DNA of 11,542 nucleotides from Chloroflexota bacterium (lineage in GTDB: Bacteria > Chloroflexota > Anaerolineae > Ardenticatenales > Ardenticatenaceae). The notes under the pieces were generated by a model, which worked only from the letters and a program-made list of their open reading frames with translations, was not told the DNA's origin and searched no databases. Of the stretch, positions 4,293 to 11,542 are shown one piece after another (the first letter of the stretch is position 1; each line of letters begins with the position of its first letter). The position numbers and the translations under genes were made by a program. The stretch is taken from contig DOUV01000495.1 of the NCBI GenBank assembly GCA_003520455.1, positions 1 to 11,542 on the forward strand. The letters run 5' to 3'.

Positions 4293-5714
4293 ATGACACA
4301 TAGTTTCCGAATTGCATTTCTCAGTGAACATGCCAGCCCCGTCGCACTCTTGGGGAGCGAGGATGCCGGCGGGCAGAACGTTTACGTGGACGAGGTGACC
4401 CGGACGCTCGGCCGCTTCGGCTACGCCGTCGATATCTTCACCCGCCGCGACAGCCTGGATGCGCCCGAGATCATCGACTGGGCCCCGGGCGTCCGGGTCG
4501 TGAACCTGAGTGCAGGGCCACCCCGGTTTCTCCTCAAGGATCAGCTCTGGCCGTTGATGCCCACGTTTCGGACGGCATTCCTCCGCTTCATGATGCGCGA
4601 CGGCGCTCGCTACGACCTGATTCACGGGAACTTCTGGATGTCCGGCTGGGTTGCGGTCGAGCTGCAGCGCCGGCTCAGGATTCCGGCCGTTCAAATCTTC
4701 CACGCCATGGGCCTGACCAAACGGCGTCATCAGGGCGAGGCCGACACCAGTCCGGAGGTCCGGATCGAGATCGAGATGGGGATCGTCCGAGCGGTGACGC
4801 GGCTGATCGCCCAGTGTCCGAGCGAGCGTGCTGAGTTAATCGAGGACTACGGCGCCGATCCGGAGGAGGTCGAGGTGATCCCATCGGGGGTCAACATCGA
4901 GCGATTTCGGCCGGTGCCGCGCGATGAGGCCCGGCGTCGAGTCGGGCTGGACCTGGACGAGCCGGTGATCGTCTACGTCGGGAGAATGCTGCCGCGGAAG
5001 GATGTTCGCAATGTTGTCCGGGCGCTCGCGATTCTGACGCGGCGATACGATGAGGGGCAAGCGCTGCCGCGGTTGCTACTGGTCGGTGGGGAGACTGCAG
5101 AGCCCGACCCGGTCGCCACGCCTGAGATCGGCGAGTTGCAGCGGCTGGCGGTCGAACTCGGCGTGGCGGACCGCGTCTGCTTCGCAGGCAAGCGGCTGCC
5201 GCTTGTGCTGCGCGACTTCTACAGCGCCGGCGACTCGAACTGGCGACAGGCCGGTTCGGCCTCGATGACGCCGCTTGTGCTGCGCGACTTCTACAGCGCC
5301 GGCGACGTTGCGGTGACGACGCCCTGGTACGAGCCCTTCGGCCTTACACCCCTGGAGGCGATGGCCTGCGGTCGGCCCGTGATCGGCTCGGCGGTTGGGG
5401 GGATCACCTTCACCGTCGAGGATGGCGTGACCGGTTTTCACGTGCCTCCCCGCACTCCTGAGGTGCTCGCCGATCGCCTGCACGAACTCCTCACCCAGCC
5501 GGAGCTGCGTGCGGAGATGGGGCGGGCCGCCCGGGCGCGGGTGGAGCGCAAGTTCACCTGGCCGATGGTCGCGCAGCACACAGCCATGCTCTACGAGGCG
5601 CTTCTGGCGTCCAATGGCCCTTCAGCCACTGCGACGGCCGGCCGAGTCCGGCGTCTCCCGGTGGTGCCGAGGAAGCGTGTGTCCATTGTCCGCCCGCGAA
5701 CCGCTGATAGCTGA
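4293..5714 (+). CDS. GT4-family glycosyltransferase carrying a 24-residue internal insertion
   Basis: Retaining GT-B glycosyltransferase using a nucleotide-sugar donor, 473 residues. The N-terminal AGGQNVYVDE (25-34) is the glycine-rich loop typical of the sucrose-phosphate synthase/MshA-like branch of GT4. The linker VIPSGVNIERFRP marks the start of the donor domain. GRMLPRKDVRNVVRAL carries the phosphate-binding Arg/Lys, and YEPFGLTPLEAMACG holds E-x7-E (Glu347, Glu355). All catalytic-domain landmarks are intact. Residues 303-314 and 327-338 are identical (PLVLRDFYSAGD), because 72 bp have been added in frame; removing one unit restores a textbook GT4 sequence. The insertion falls shortly before the donor-binding Glu, so activity may be altered. 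The C-terminal tail after about 440 is low-complexity and basic. The RBS is modest (AAAAAGG). Next gene starts 49 nt downstream. Confidence 0.9.
   Translation: MTHSFRIAFLSEHASPVALLGSEDAGGQNVYVDEVTRTLGRFGYAVDIFTRRDSLDAPEIIDWAPGVRVVNLSAGPPRFLLKDQLWPLMPTFRTAFLRFMMRDGARYDLIHGNFWMSGWVAVELQRRLRIPAVQIFHAMGLTKRRHQGEADTSPEVRIEIEMGIVRAVTRLIAQCPSERAELIEDYGADPEEVEVIPSGVNIERFRPVPRDEARRRVGLDLDEPVIVYVGRMLPRKDVRNVVRALAILTRRYDEGQALPRLLLVGGETAEPDPVATPEIGELQRLAVELGVADRVCFAGKRLPLVLRDFYSAGDSNWRQAGSASMTPLVLRDFYSAGDVAVTTPWYEPFGLTPLEAMACGRPVIGSAVGGITFTVEDGVTGFHVPPRTPEVLADRLHELLTQPELRAEMGRAARARVERKFTWPMVAQHTAMLYEALLASNGPSATATAGRVRRLPVVPRKRVSIVRPRTADS
5198..5306 (+). repeat. 37-bp perfect direct repeat flanking a 35-bp hairpin-containing spacer
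   Basis: Copies at 5198-5234 and 5270-5306 are identical over 37 bp with different flanks on both sides. The period is 72 bp, a multiple of three, so the GT4 reading frame survives. The 35-bp spacer (5235-5269) is not a copy of either flank. It contains a perfect 6-bp inverted repeat, AGGCCG-GTT-CGGCCT (5248-5262). Origins could be replication slippage with template switching at the hairpin, or an assembly error. Confidence 0.9.
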
Positions 5715-6744: not shown

Positions 6745-7476
6745 ATGAACACAGATCTGAAAGGGAAAGTCGTACTCATCACCGGCGCCGGGAGCGGGCT
6801 GGGTGAGGCGACGGCGAGGGCCTTTGCGCGGGCGGGCTCAAAGGTTGCCTGCGTCGATATCAACGGGGAGGCCGCCGAGCGCGTCGGCCGCGCGCTCGAC
6901 GCCGAGAGCATGGTGCTGCGGTGTGATGTGAGCGAGGCCGAGAGCGTCTTCCAAACCGTCGGCGCGGTTGTCGAGCGGTTCGGACGATTAGATGTCGTGG
7001 TCAACAGCGCGGCCATTGACCACACGGTCTCCGTCGAGGAGATGGCGATCGAGCAGTGGGACCAGGTGATTGCCGTCAATCTGCGCGGGCCCTTCCTGGT
7101 CGCCAAGGCCGTGCTGCCGGCCATGAAGCGCCAGCGCTCGGGCCACATCGTCAACATCGCTTCGACGGCCGCGACACGGGCCTGGGCCAACGCCGCGGCC
7201 TACCATGCCTCGAAGTGGGGGCTGGTCGGGTTCAGCCGTGGCCTCGGGGTCGAAGGTCGCCCCTACGGCATTCGGGTCACGACAATCATTCCCGGCGGCA
7301 TGCGGACCCACTTTTTCGATCGCTTCCGGGAGCAAGACATTCCGATGCCGGACGAGCGCAACTTACAGGACCCAGCCAACGTGGCCCAGGCAATTCTCTT
7401 CGCTGCGCAGATGCCGCCCGAGTCGGTGGTCCAGGAGGTGATTGTCACACCGCTGACCGAGACGAGTTGGCCGTGA
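6745..7476 (+). CDS. Short-chain dehydrogenase/reductase (classical SDR)
   Basis: NAD(P)(H)-dependent oxidoreductase of 243 residues, usual length for a classical SDR. The cofactor loop TGAGSGLG is residues 13-20. Asp38 at the end of the second strand (VACVDIN) favours NAD(H) over NADP(H). The NNAG motif appears as the variant NSAA. The catalytic triad is Ser140, Tyr153 and Lys157 (YHASK), with the structural Asn in IAVNLRG. The start is the ATG at 6745, after AAGGAGGAG about 10 nt upstream. It sits between the GT2 gene (99 nt before) and the heptose kinase (143 nt after), so it may modify a sugar or precursor for the glycan. Classical SDRs act on many alcohols and ketones, and this one is not of the extended nucleotide-sugar type. 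Substrate unknown. Confidence 0.9.
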   Translation: MNTDLKGKVVLITGAGSGLGEATARAFARAGSKVACVDINGEAAERVGRALDAESMVLRCDVSEAESVFQTVGAVVERFGRLDVVVNSAAIDHTVSVEEMAIEQWDQVIAVNLRGPFLVAKAVLPAMKRQRSGHIVNIASTAATRAWANAAAYHASKWGLVGFSRGLGVEGRPYGIRVTTIIPGGMRTHFFDRFREQDIPMPDERNLQDPANVAQAILFAAQMPPESVVQEVIVTPLTETSWP

Positions 7477-7619: not shown

Positions 7620-8789
7620 ATGCTGATTGCGCGCGCCCCGGTACGGATTAGCTTCGGGGGCGGTGGAACCGACCTCGCAGCCTACTATACTCGCTTCGGC
7701 GGGTTCGTCGTCAGCGCGGCGATCACCCGCTACTGCTACGTTGTCGCCCGGACACCGGCGGACCGTCGTCTCCGGATCTACTCGGCCGACTACCAGATCA
7801 CGGAAACCTTCCGCTGCGGCGAGCCGCCGGTGGTGGAGGAGCCCTTGATCTTGCCCAAGGCGGCGATCGAGCGGTTTCTGGATCGTGGGTTGCGCGAGAC
7901 CGGGATCGATTTGTTCCTGGCTGCGGAGGTTCCGCCGGGGACCGGGTTGGGCTCGTCGAGCGCGATGGCCATCAGCCTGATTCGGGCTCTTGCTGCCTCT
8001 GTAGGAATGGGGCTCACCGCGACCGAAGCAGCCGGGCTGGCCTGCTGGTTGGAGATCGAGCGGCTTGGAATGCCTATCGGCAAGCAGGATCAATACGCCA
8101 GCGCCTTTGGTGGGCTCAACACGATCGAGTTCACAGCCGATGGCGTGAGTGTCAGGCCGCTGAGGGCACCGGCTGACGTCGTCGCGGCCCTCAGTGCTCG
8201 TCTGCTCCTGTTCTCGACGGGGAAGAGCCGCGATTCGGCCGGGATCCTTCGCCAACAGCGGGCGGACACCGGGTCGAAGCCGGCAGTCATCGAGTCGCTG
8301 CACCGGATCAAGGCGCTTGCCGAGGAGATGTGTGAGGCCCTGATGGCTGCGGACCTGGACGGGTTCGGAGGGTTGCTCGACCGCGCCTGGTGGCACAAAA
8401 AGCAGTTGTCGGGGAAGATCTCCTCGGCCACCATCGACCAGTGGTACGAGGCGGCGAGGGAGGCCGGGGCGCTCGGCGGCAAGATCGCTGGCGCCGGGGG
8501 AGGCGGCTTTCTCCTGCTCTACTGCCCCCCGCGCCGACAGAAGGCGGTGCGGGCCGCGATGGCCCAGTTCGGTCTGCGCGAGTTGGCCTTTGGTTTCGAC
8601 TTCGCGGGCGCCCAGGTATTGGCCGCCGGCGATGCCAGCCGCTTCAATGGCCGGGTTCCGGTGAGAGTGGTTGGAACGGAGCGCCGCTCGACCGCGTACG
8701 AGCGAGCGGGTTCTTTTATCGAATGCGAGCAAGAAAAGGGTGGGACTAATGCGAGACGACATCGAACTGTACTGGCGCGAACTGGTTGA
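7620..8789 (+). CDS. hddA: GHMP-family kinase, D-glycero-D-manno-heptose 7-phosphate kinase-like
   Basis: ATP-dependent sugar kinase. By family it would phosphorylate D-glycero-alpha-D-manno-heptose 7-phosphate to the 1,7-bisphosphate on the way to GDP-heptose. Visible motifs are RAPVRISFGGGGTD (5-18), the ATP-binding PPGTGLGSSSA (105-115), GKQDQYASAFGG with the likely catalytic Asp157 (154-165), and the C-terminal GHMP motif KIAGAGGGGFLLLY (288-301). The product is 389 residues; the recognisable fold ends near residue 338 (FDFAGAQVLAAGD). The remaining ~50 residues resemble no conserved tail and have a lower third-position GC, overlapping the next gene by 41 nt. An adjacent gmhA-like gene strongly supports the heptose assignment over a fucokinase or galactokinase-type role. 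The symbol is given on that combined basis. Confidence 0.82.
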   Translation: MLIARAPVRISFGGGGTDLAAYYTRFGGFVVSAAITRYCYVVARTPADRRLRIYSADYQITETFRCGEPPVVEEPLILPKAAIERFLDRGLRETGIDLFLAAEVPPGTGLGSSSAMAISLIRALAASVGMGLTATEAAGLACWLEIERLGMPIGKQDQYASAFGGLNTIEFTADGVSVRPLRAPADVVAALSARLLLFSTGKSRDSAGILRQQRADTGSKPAVIESLHRIKALAEEMCEALMAADLDGFGGLLDRAWWHKKQLSGKISSATIDQWYEAAREAGALGGKIAGAGGGGFLLLYCPPRRQKAVRAAMAQFGLRELAFGFDFAGAQVLAAGDASRFNGRVPVRVVGTERRSTAYERAGSFIECEQEKGGTNARRHRTVLARTG

Positions 8790-9390
8790 TGTGACCCGGA
8801 CCATGCCCTTCGCCGCGCTCGCGAGGATGGCCGAGTTGCTGCTCGAGTGCCACGGGCGCAGCGGGACCATTTTCATACTGGGCAACGGCGGCAGCGCCGC
8901 GACGGCCTCGCACTTCGCCTGCGACCTGGCCAAAGGCACGCAGACAGAGGGCATTCCGGCCTTCCGGGTGGTTCCATTGACCGATAATGTTCCCTTGCTC
9001 ACGGCCTGGGCGAACGATACGAGCTACGACCGCGTCTTCGCCGAACAGTTGGCGGCGCTGATCCGGCCCGGCGACGTGGTCGTCGCGATCAGCACGAGCG
9101 GTGACTCGCCGAACGTCCTCGAGGCAACCAGGCTGGCACGGAAGGTCGGGGCGACGACAGTTGCCCTGACCGGGCAAAGCGGCGGCCGGTTGCGCCGCCT
9201 GGCCGACCTGACCATCCGAGTTCCAGCCGGCCCGATCGAGCAGGTCGAGGACGCCCACCTCGTCATCGCCCACAGCCTGTGCGTGGCTCTTCGCCAGCGG
9301 ATGCGCGCCGAGGCGAGGCCCCTGGCAGGCGAGCGGCCGGCGCTTCAGGAGGCGGTGGATGCATCAGTCGCGCTGGAGATCGGAGGGTAG
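8749..9390 (+). CDS. gmhA: SIS-domain sedoheptulose 7-phosphate isomerase (phosphoheptose isomerase)
   Basis: Isomerises sedoheptulose 7-phosphate to D-glycero-D-manno-heptose 7-phosphate, the substrate of the preceding kinase. It has 213 residues, slightly longer than the typical ~190-200. The SIS fold is shown by ILGNGGSAATASHFACDL (43-60), the phosphate-binding ISTSGDSPNV (114-123), and VEDAHLVIAHSLC (166-178). Comparing from memory with E. coli GmhA, the metal/active-site set His-Glu-Gln-His appears here as His55, Asp59, Glu167 and His175, so two positions are conservatively changed. The start is the ATG at 8749, after AAGGGTGG; the upstream in-frame extension lies inside hddA and is not GmhA-like. 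Translational coupling to hddA is likely because the genes overlap by 41 nt. The ~25-residue tail after 190 is unexplained. Confidence 0.87.
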   Translation: MRDDIELYWRELVDVTRTMPFAALARMAELLLECHGRSGTIFILGNGGSAATASHFACDLAKGTQTEGIPAFRVVPLTDNVPLLTAWANDTSYDRVFAEQLAALIRPGDVVVAISTSGDSPNVLEATRLARKVGATTVALTGQSGGRLRRLADLTIRVPAGPIEQVEDAHLVIAHSLCVALRQRMRAEARPLAGERPALQEAVDASVALEIGG

Positions 9391-9657
9391 TGCGACCAGG
9401 TCACCCACCGTGGGGAGAATGCGCGGTGGCGTTATGCCTGGACCCATTTTCCCGGGTGGGCTATCTGGAAGCGGGATGCTCGTCGTCCCGGCTGGCGGCG
9501 AAGCAAGCCCGGCTGACCGCCAGGTAGACGGTCGGGCGAGCGAATCGAGGAATGCGAGAAGCGACGGCAGGGGAAAACAGTGGGCGCCGGAGAATCCGGC
9601 GCCCGGTTTGTGCCTGGGTTCTGAACAGGTCAAAGGCGAGATGCTGAGCGAGCCGGC
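9391..9657. other. Convergent intergenic region with GC-rich inverted repeats
   Basis: A 267-bp spacer between the 3' ends of gmhA and the minus-strand small gene. It contains a 7-bp inverted repeat CTGGCGG...CCGCCAG (9492-9498 and 9517-9523) with an 18-nt loop. An 8-bp direct repeat CCCGGCTG (9487-9494 and 9508-9515) partly overlaps that stem, so two alternative folds are possible. The hairpin terminator at 9582-9604 follows. I matched no tRNA and no known riboswitch class. No open frame with convincing protein features is present. Confidence 0.5.
9582..9604 (-). terminator. Hairpin terminator, probably for the minus-strand small gene
   Basis: A perfect 10-bp stem GGGCGCCGGA/TCCGGCGCCC around a 3-nt loop. 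On the minus strand the stem is followed by ACTGTTTTCCCC, a short T run, and lies about 54 nt past the stop of the small gene, which fits an intrinsic terminator for it. On the plus strand it is followed only by GGTTTGTG, so it might also attenuate read-through from gmhA, less efficiently. Confidence 0.6.
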
Positions 9658-10098
9658 TCAATCGTGCTCGCGTTCCGGGCTATCAAACATGAAGAAGTTG
9701 CTCTGGTTGCCGTTGCTCAGATGCTCCTGGTAGAGGAAGACGAGTTGCCGCTCGTCGAAGATCTTGAACCATTCGTCCCAGCTAATCTCTTTGAGATCCT
9801 TGCCGCCGTAGCCGGGGAAGTCGAATCGCAGGACCCTGGGGCGTCCGTTATGCTCGGTGCCCGGCACTGTCGCCGGCTTGCCATCGCGCTCCTCGGCCCA
9901 GTGCTTGATGACCTCGTGGCTGCGGGCCGCCAATGTCTGGCCGGGGTGGTCCTCGTGCTCGTCCAACGAATGGATCCACATGGCACGCCTGGTCGTATCC
10001 GAGAGCATATCTTCGTGCTCGGCGATGAAGCGCGCCTCTTCAGGCGTCACATTCTTCGCCTTCACCTCAGGCGTCTTCTCTTTGCTTTTGCCCGCCAT
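9658..10098 (-). CDS. Small conserved protein of unknown function
   Basis: A 146-residue, highly charged, soluble protein without signal peptide or membrane segment. A lysine-rich N-terminus (KSKEKTPEVKAKN, 4-16) leads into TPEEARFIAEHEDML, then DEHEDHPGQTLAARSHEVIKHWAEE (46-70) and an aromatic/acidic C-terminal block, VLRFDFPGYGG, SWDEWFKIFDE and FLYQEH...SNFF (89-136). I recognise the C-terminal block as a widespread small family of unknown function that, as I recall, is sometimes labelled in databases as a 1,4-alpha-glucan branching enzyme. Nothing here resembles that enzyme's catalytic domain, so that label should not be used. The ATG at 10098 has GAGGG 7 nt upstream. It runs against the glycan operon, has its own terminator, and its base composition is visibly less GC-rich than its neighbours. 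Confidence 0.88.
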   Translation of the reverse strand: MAGKSKEKTPEVKAKNVTPEEARFIAEHEDMLSDTTRRAMWIHSLDEHEDHPGQTLAARSHEVIKHWAEERDGKPATVPGTEHNGRPRVLRFDFPGYGGKDLKEISWDEWFKIFDERQLVFLYQEHLSNGNQSNFFMFDSPEREHD

Positions 10099-10550
10099 TT
10101 GTTTCCCTCACTTTGTTTCTTGATGGTAAAGCGCGACGGAGAGCCAGGTGCTCCCTGCATCGCAATGGCGTTGTGCCATTCGACGTCCGACCGCACCATC
10201 GCGCTCGATCATTCGAGTGCCTATCGCGGGAGCCCTCCGAAGGCTATTCGGTCAGGCGCACTGGCCCAGCGCCGACCGGCCGGACCAATACACTGCTGGC
10301 CAATGACTAAAACAGCATATTACGTGCCGCCAACCGGGGGCGGCTGGAGGGCGGAAACTCTCCGGGGGTTGTCACCTCCCAATTCCAACATTCGGACGGT
10401 AGAAAGGCGGCAAGATTTATGCCAGGCCGGGCGAGGGCACTTCGACGTGGTATGAAACCTGCTTATAGGCCAGATCGAGAATTCGAACAGCGCGCAGTCG
10501 CCTGTTGGCTCCCGATTCGGGCTGACAGGCAAGTACCAGAGTGGTAGCTT
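10099..10550. other. Divergent intergenic region before the fused glycosyltransferase
   Basis: A 452-bp gene-free stretch between two divergent genes. It holds a 17-bp dyad AATGGC-GTTGT-GCCATT (10164-10180), about 66 bp upstream of the small gene's start, and a GC hairpin GCCGCC...GGCGGC (10326-10344) next to an AT-rich patch (GCATATTACG, 10315-10324). Two other AT-rich patches lie near 10415 and 10455. I tested these for -35/-10 pairs on both strands and found none with good matches and spacing. Long overlapping open frames here are shadows. Confidence 0.45.
10164..10180. promoter_or_regulatory. 6-bp inverted repeat with 5-nt centre, candidate operator
   Basis: AATGGC-GTTGT-GCCATT, perfectly symmetric arms, in the divergent region close to the minus-strand small gene. 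Nothing else supports a regulatory role; dyads of this size do occur by chance. Confidence 0.25.
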
Positions 10551-11542
10551 GTGAGCCCGCAACCAACACCTACCCCGCTTGTCACTGTCATCCTCCCAAC
10601 CCACAATCGCGCGGAACTGCTGAGGCGTGCAATCGCTTCGGTGACTGCGCAGACTTACCCCCACTGGGAACTCATCGTTGTGGACGACGCCTCGACCGAC
10701 TCCACCGCGGAGGTGGTTCAGTCGTTCGGCAACGCGCGGGTCTACAGGGTGCGCCTGCCGTTCAACTGCGGCCACCCCTCCCGGCCGCGCAACGTTGGCT
10801 GGCTTCTCGCCCGTGGTACCTACATCGCCTACATCGACGACGACAATGCCTGGCGGCCACACCACCTGGAGCGGCTCGTCGCCGCCGCCGAGGCCCATCC
10901 CGAGGCCGCCGGGGCCTACGGAGGTCGCTGCCACCACGCCCCGGACGGCAGCGTGGAAGACATTGTCGATCCCGATCACGGCATCGATACCGGCGACGGC
11001 CTCCACCGCCGCGATCTGATCCAGCTCATGCCGGAGATGTGGACGGAGACCAACTTTACGAACGAAGATCAGGAATTCTGGGCCCGCTTGCAGGAGCGCC
11101 ACCCTGTCGGGTTGGTATGGGTCCCTGAGATCCTGTCCGACTACTACATTCACGCAGGCAACCGCTACTTCAACCACTGGCTGAATGTCCGCCGCCACGA
11201 TCAGGGCTACTTCAGTCGCAATGCCTCCTGGCTCGATGATTCGGCGCGATGGGGCGCCTACGTGGATTGGGTCACCAGGCTCGAGCCTGCCCGCGTCCTG
11301 GACGTGGGCTGCGGTCGCGGGTGGGCCGTGCGGGCGCTGCGCGAACGGGGCATTTCGGCCTGGGGGATCGATTCCTCGCCGAGCCTGGCAGCGCTCACGG
11401 TGATCCCTGGCGCTTTCATTCGTGCTACCGCCGACCGCCTGCCGTTCGCCAATGGGATGTTCGACGTCGTGCTGTGTACCGATGTCCTGGCGCACATCCC
11501 CGACCGCTTCGTCGCGCGCACCCTACGCGACCTGGTGCGTGT
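10551..11542 (+). CDS. GT2 glycosyltransferase fused to a SAM methyltransferase (3' end outside window)
   Basis: Open to the right edge: 330 complete codons plus 2 nt. Residues ~10-210 are a GT-A/GT2 glycosyltransferase: VTVILPTHNR (11-20), VVDDAS (43-48), the DXD-type motif YIDDDNAWRPHHLERL with Asp96-Asp98, and NEDQEFWARL (171-180) as the acceptor-side ED motif. After a tyrosine/asparagine-rich linker, residues ~245 onward form a class I methyltransferase: VLDVGCGRGW (249-258), WGIDSS with the SAM-ribose acidic residue Asp274, then RLPFANGMFDVVLCTDVLAHIPD (296-318). A single protein could therefore add a sugar and methylate, or methyl-cap, a glycan. The start is the GTG at 10551; a TAG two codons upstream excludes anything longer, although the RBS is weak. 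The reading frame is continuous across the junction. The remainder of the methyltransferase, and any third domain, lie beyond the window. Confidence 0.9.
   Translation, partial: MSPQPTPTPLVTVILPTHNRAELLRRAIASVTAQTYPHWELIVVDDASTDSTAEVVQSFGNARVYRVRLPFNCGHPSRPRNVGWLLARGTYIAYIDDDNAWRPHHLERLVAAAEAHPEAAGAYGGRCHHAPDGSVEDIVDPDHGIDTGDGLHRRDLIQLMPEMWTETNFTNEDQEFWARLQERHPVGLVWVPEILSDYYIHAGNRYFNHWLNVRRHDQGYFSRNASWLDDSARWGAYVDWVTRLEPARVLDVGCGRGWAVRALRERGISAWGIDSSPSLAALTVIPGAFIRATADRLPFANGMFDVVLCTDVLAHIPDRFVARTLRDLVR

Follow-up and report, generated by a model that had tools for sequence, protein, structure and literature searches.

At its 3' end, the window (the whole stretch of DNA analysed here, 11,542 nucleotides of contig DOUV01000495.1 from the Chloroflexota bacterium assembly GCA_003520455.1, forward strand) carries a gene in which a GT2 glycosyltransferase (GT) domain and a class I S-adenosylmethionine (SAM)-dependent methyltransferase (MT) domain are joined in a single chain. 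The window holds, as read from the sequence, the first three quarters of this two-domain enzyme, and the enzyme belongs to a small, unstudied family, referred to here as GT2-MT, whose named members so far all come from Anaerolineae. We consider it probable that GT2-MT has two activities in glycan modification, transferring one sugar and most likely O-methylating it, to yield a surface-glycan or glycolipid product. The features of the gene are as follows.

10551..11540, + strand: GT2-methyltransferase fusion gene, 330 codons, 3' end lost at the window edge
10572..11162, + strand: GT-A (GT2) glycosyltransferase domain, residues 8-204, from Pfam; fold matches of the model of relative P0003 around residues 7-210
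10680..10688, + strand: VDD (residues 44-46), with D45 and D46 unchanged in all 42 sequences
10836..10844, + strand: DDD (residues 96-98), metal motif of the DXD type, unchanged in all 42
11064..11069, + strand: ED (residues 172-173), putative catalytic base of the GT, unchanged in all 42
11163..11201, + strand: short linker, residues 205-217, mostly of low model confidence, coiled coil absent
11202..11540, + strand: class I SAM-dependent methyltransferase domain, residues 218-330, from Pfam and the fold of relative P0003, its C-terminal part lying past the window
11301..11321, + strand: DVGCGRG (residues 251-257), SAM-binding motif I, with D251, G253, C254 and G255 in 42 of 42 and G257 in 40 of 42

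A preliminary description of this DNA had placed a GT2 domain and a SAM methyltransferase in one unbroken frame, with DDD at residues 96-98 and DVGCGRG at 251-257, and all of this was borne out exactly. The GTG-started frame on the + strand is open from 10551 to 11540, with no stop as far as the window end, and in a Pfam scan of the window protein PF00535 (Glycos_transf_2) matched residues 12-119 (E 6.4e-29, 101.5 bits against a cut-off of 23.3) and PF08241 (Methyltransf_11) matched residues 250-319 (E 7.6e-13, 49.4 bits against a cut-off of 21.2); PF13489 (Methyltransf_23; 48.3 bits, cut-off 27) and Methyltransf_25 were likewise above their cut-offs. Third-position GC is high throughout the frame (0.805 for residues 1-210, 0.775 for 211-250 and 0.812 for 251-330), and in the alignment, of which every second row was viewed, the GT/MT junction aligns with that of the relatives with small gaps at most. 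We take VDD 44-46 to have a nucleotide-binding role, and E172/D173 presumably supply the catalytic base as in GT2 enzymes.

The frame can be followed past position 11542 in the database protein P0046 (194 amino acids, no start, from a 12150-base contig), which is identical to window residues 240-330 at 91 of 91 positions and then continues for 103 further residues, so that the full-length window protein would have about 433 amino acids. Contrary to the earlier expectation that gene-finders requiring a stop codon inside the window would miss the gene, the database already contains it as P0002 (331 amino acids, from an 11542-base contig). In the model of the close relative P0003, fold searches matched both a GT-A fold and a Rossmann-like methyltransferase fold, which lie about a dozen residues apart, and the longest helix has 14 residues. 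Methyltransferases that act on substrates other than sugars are among the MT fold matches, with the same Z, and among the best 50 rows of each search no chain was readable as the same two-domain architecture. Some long chains were aligned over 350-500 columns, with a root-mean-square deviation of at least 15, and these alignments were set aside as meaningless.

How often the two domains co-occur in this order had been raised as a question, and database searches with the window protein (E <=1e-10) and with a 41-member profile (E <=1e-20) bear on it; 7996 candidates were scored, and the results below concern the best 120 of 475 and the best 120 of 1196 matches, respectively. The window protein has 43 close relatives (P0003-P0045), 50-82% identical to it, and 41 of the 43 have both domains. 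The other two, P0022 and P0023, are listed with the GT domain only and diverge from the family around the SAM motif. The 41 two-domain relatives are 362-458 amino acids long, the shortest being P0031, which is named partial. With the window protein as query, scores fall from 361 to 132 bits after the family, the fragment P0046 (189 bits) standing apart, and a methyltransferase domain is listed for none of the 75 proteins that follow (P0047-P0121). The profile recovered the same 44 proteins (P0002-P0045) before a fall from 477 to 216 bits, and only two of the 76 further rows (P0186 and P0197) carry another methyltransferase domain, PF13578. From the MT side, a search with P0046, which covered proteins up to about 340 amino acids, gave 32 matches, of which three (P0122-P0124) are family fragments, as judged from their sequences; for 27 further proteins only methyltransferase domains are listed, at 30-47% identity over 38-78% of the query. 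From the score drops and the domain listings we conclude that the family is sharply bounded and that its nearest relatives have just one of the two domains.

Chains of this general kind do occur outside the family. Among loci in genome contigs, the best 80 of 170 were kept, and when their 80 open reading frames (ORFs) and the window protein were scanned for domains, 81 of 81 matched GT2 and 6 of 81 matched Methyltransf_11. Three of these six are the window, L001 and L002, because P0034 and P0037, the products of L001 and L002, belong to set A3, where 43 of 43 match. The remaining pairings of GT2 with Methyltransf_11 come from 3 of the 78 other locus ORFs, and GT2-MT chains outside the family are thus a minority; a motif scan points to L035 (2568 amino acids) and L057 (1637 amino acids), both very long, as two of them.

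Conservation was assessed over 42 sequences, namely the 41 two-domain relatives and the window protein. Residues D45, D46, D96-98, E172, D173, H201, D251, G253, C254, G255 and D305 are invariant in 42 of 42, and W358 and W359 are kept in all 41 rows that reach them. Variation was seen at G257 (A in two sequences), D274 (E in one) and H315 (different in three). The GT half is the better conserved, with a mean pairwise identity of 0.689 as against 0.505 in the MT half, and identity values in one half correlate with those in the other (r = 0.88, a value reached by 0 of 2000 permutations). In FastTree trees built from each half, the same two subfamilies appear with support 1.0: H75 (20 sequences, the window included) and S75 (22 sequences). 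The half trees have 15 of 39 splits in common; of the splits with support of at least 0.9 (12 and 13, respectively), 6 are common and 4 pairs conflict, the conflicting pairs falling, to judge from the names printed, inside the subfamilies. Because both half trees separate the same two subfamilies, we infer that the halves were joined before H75 and S75 split. For P0010 and P0033, one sequence from each subfamily, the longest contig given has a length of exactly 5200 bases in both cases (both jgi), and the two may be tandem paralogues on one contig.

All family members with a source name come from Anaerolineae. The genomes of L001 (Anaerolinea sp.) and L002 (Chloroflexota bacterium), both of the S75 subfamily, gave one match each, and no member of the window's H75 subfamily was present among the best 80 of 170 loci. 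When the best four candidates per genome were scored, GT2-MT was carried by 3 of 396 genomes sampled from the class of genome G002 (E <=1e-60) and by 1 of 400 sampled from the phylum (E <=1e-50), the latter being G002 itself. The carriers are every genome searched of that taxonomic family (3 of 3) and of that order (3 of 3). Plasmid and viral origins were considered and rejected: 394 plasmid records matched, all below 60% identity and the best 20 listed at no more than 34.2%, and 34 viral loci matched at only 25-43% identity. A few of these plasmid and viral matches (e.g., H1-H3 and L104) extend past residue 260, so other GT2-MT fusions may exist there. We found no publication on the GT2-MT family or on such enzymes in Chloroflexota, which is not proof of absence.

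The genes upstream of the fusion gene in the window, and the SIS-fold genes that precede it in relatives, are listed here.

6745..7476, + strand: classical short-chain dehydrogenase/reductase (SDR), from Pfam; three relatives have a homologue shortly upstream of the fusion gene
7623..8789, + strand: GHMP sugar kinase, D-glycero-D-manno-heptose kinase-like; start picked by eye
8749..9390, + strand: GmhA-like phosphoheptose isomerase (SIS), overlapping the end of the kinase gene; also read from 8743, two codons before the ATG
9658..10098, - strand: conserved ORF, function unassigned, between the SIS gene and the fusion gene
L001:2784-3413, L002:6484-7113 and L090:2461-3090: SIS-fold (GmhA/DiaA-like) proteins before GT2-MT

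The recurring link, by comparison of neighbours, is that of the SDR with GT2-MT, as the kinase and a catalytic-type isomerase lie near GT2-MT in the window only. The order SDR, SIS-fold protein, GT2-MT is found in L001, L002 and L090 (genome G064), and an SDR is near GT2-MT in 4 of 4 loci (the window and these three), three of them from one order. The relatives' SDRs are 57-61% identical to the window SDR, and in each of the three genomes the copy adjacent to the fusion is the best match, the next being 42-43% identical. The window SDR itself is three genes and 3 kb from the fusion gene because the kinase, the isomerase and a gap of 1160 bases intervene, the gap running from the last upstream + strand gene to the start of the fusion gene and containing the antisense ORF. 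That ORF has no Pfam or NCBIfam match, and homologues 57-58% identical occur in the three GT2-MT genomes; these were found in 3 of 100 class genomes sampled, on contigs other than those of GT2-MT. In 9300-10700, a scan for promoters and terminators gave a single promoter-like site, within the gene (0.2 in shuffles), and two sites resembling terminators (1.2 in shuffles), which we did not use as evidence.

Most unusual is the motif-less SIS protein encoded directly before GT2-MT in the three other genomes. Its gene stops 21 bases short of the fusion gene in L001 and L090, whereas in L002 it overlaps the GT2-MT start, and its product has lost both the GNGGSA and the STSG motif and is 32-36% identical to the window SIS protein. 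The latter has both motifs as in solved isomerases (alignment to 1tk9), and its best solved relatives are phosphoheptose isomerases; it scored 119.5 against NCBIfam gmhA, under the cut-off of 209.45. Similarly, the best solved relatives of the window kinase are sugar kinases and heptose kinases, and its score of 176.9 is far below the NCBIfam cut-off of 600. A kinase beside the fusion gene in relatives was looked for and rejected, the best kinase homologues lying on other contigs; two of the three fusion contigs are short, and nearness across a gap is possible. In G002, a kinase and an SIS protein 57% identical to those of the window lie together on another contig. Wide context comes from L002 only, as the L001 and L090 contigs are short and little informative; the four L002 flanking genes scanned encode a radical SAM protein, UbiA, an FmdA_AmdA amidase and a proton antiporter/NADH dehydrogenase subunit, with no glycan gene among them. 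Speculatively, and in our view improbably, the SDR, SIS-fold protein and GT2-MT could form a compact, lineage-specific cassette of one Anaerolineae order; its product would be a small glycolipid or glycan with an O-methylated rare sugar, perhaps heptose, and the SIS protein may act as a pseudo-isomerase, either passing the sugar on to the bifunctional enzyme or sensing it.

Two further observations were made elsewhere in the window. Within the second GT4 gene (4293-5714), an exact 37-base direct repeat (5198-5306, spacing 72) leads to an in-frame doubling of LVLRDFYSAGD, and Pfam matches Glycos_transf_1 there in two stretches; the repeat is either a recent tandem duplication or an assembly error. 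On the - strand, 167-1717 encodes an aldehyde dehydrogenase that scored above the NCBIfam L-piperidine-6-carboxylate dehydrogenase cut-off (785 against 730 bits).

GT2 family enzymes are inverting. In the reaction we propose, the N-terminal GT2 domain would take a sugar from a nucleotide-sugar, with the metal held by DDD 96-98 and E172/D173 as base, and would pass it to an acceptor linked to a lipid or a glycan. Next, the class I methyltransferase at the C terminus would most likely O-methylate a hydroxyl of the newly added sugar, leaving a surface glycan or glycolipid with an O-methylated sugar. That the sugar is a heptose or a related one is a guess from the position of the kinase and isomerase in the window. 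What might have been an edge artefact can now be defined as a conserved family of two-domain proteins, next to which one neighbour gene recurs. From this family one would expect O-methylated sugars at the cell surface, or in glycolipids, of an Anaerolineae lineage about which little is known, and an enzyme this compact, with a single GT and a single MT, would be suited to asking how the two steps couple.

Because the gene is cut by the window end, a frameshift, a chimeric assembly or a chance open frame joining two genes had to be considered; this is refuted by the presence of the same fusion in 41 other proteins, one of them on a 1.33-Mb contig, and in three genomes, and we reject it. That the fusion is real and its MT degenerate and non-catalytic is very improbable: G257 and H315 do vary in a few members, and P0022 and P0023 diverge where the SAM motif lies, but the core of that motif is invariant, D274 is kept in 41 of 42, and the tryptophans at 358 and 359 are retained. 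A more serious, if still doubtful, alternative is that the chain carries two enzymes with separate targets, the MT acting on an aglycone, a lipid or another metabolite and not on the sugar added by the GT. The equal-Z fold matches with non-sugar methyltransferases, the lower conservation of the MT half and the short gene group with an SDR and an SIS protein in three genomes would all fit it. Against it stand two precedents: A064R methylates, in vitro, the sugar added by its preceding domain (PMC9614988), and the same has been proposed for the GT2 of Clostridium difficile (PMC5207246). These precedents favour our reading, that sugar and methyl are placed on the same residue.

The preliminary description had gone further, suggesting a terminal, methyl-capping or length-controlling step for the glycan of the upstream operon, that is, a terminator akin to WbdD or WsaE whose MT caps the non-reducing end so that growth stops. 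Three glycosyltransferase genes do lie upstream in the window, and in known systems WsaE has MT and GT modules in one chain with the methyl as a proposed cap (PMC2943079), and the chains of WbdD systems end in methyl or phosphomethyl caps (PMC11231755). However, the P0003 model has no coiled-coil ruler (its linker spans about residues 205-217), no ABC (ATP-binding cassette) exporter domain was found among the 10 window proteins scanned, where the window ends inside the fusion gene and an exporter could follow, the 1160-base gap separates the fusion gene from the upstream genes, and the scanned L002 flanks are not genes for glycans. We therefore regard this alternative as quite unlikely. Overall, the earlier interpretation is partly supported: the coupling of glycosylation and methylation in one chain agrees with both domains, the conserved motifs and the old fusion, a terminal cap is possible, and control of the length of the upstream operon's glycan is not supported.

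Four known systems can be compared with the glycan-modifying enzyme we propose. WbdD terminators transfer methyl onto a glycan or its terminal phosphate, and methyl transfer onto a glycan is also predicted for the window protein; unlike it, they lack a GT module and have a coiled-coil ruler, with a kinase in O9a/O3 (PMC11231755), whereas the window protein has neither ruler nor kinase. WsaE of Geobacillus stearothermophilus NRS 2004/3a resembles the window protein in joining GT and MT in one chain; its product is O-methyl rhamnose, and the methyl is proposed as a chain-terminating cap (PMC2943079). WsaE thus shows that a methyl can cap a chain, yet its MT is N-terminal, it has two GT domains and its locus contains ABC transporter genes, whereas in the window protein the GT comes first and the MT second; for the latter, the data show neither a cap nor length control. 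As described, A064R of chlorovirus PBCV-1 has the GT part first and a C-terminal methyltransferase, domain 3, that methylates O-2 of the terminal rhamnose in vitro (PMC9614988); it differs in having two GT domains plus the MT and in being a viral N-glycan enzyme. The C. difficile type B flagellin glycosyltransferase GT2 (CDR20291_0242), compared by domain content only, has PF00535 and PF08241 in one chain, as does the window protein, and is proposed to add and monomethylate rhamnose (PMC5207246), although its locus is that of a flagellin O-glycan. GT and MT in one chain were known before, and GT2-MT is a new family of an already known kind of enzyme.
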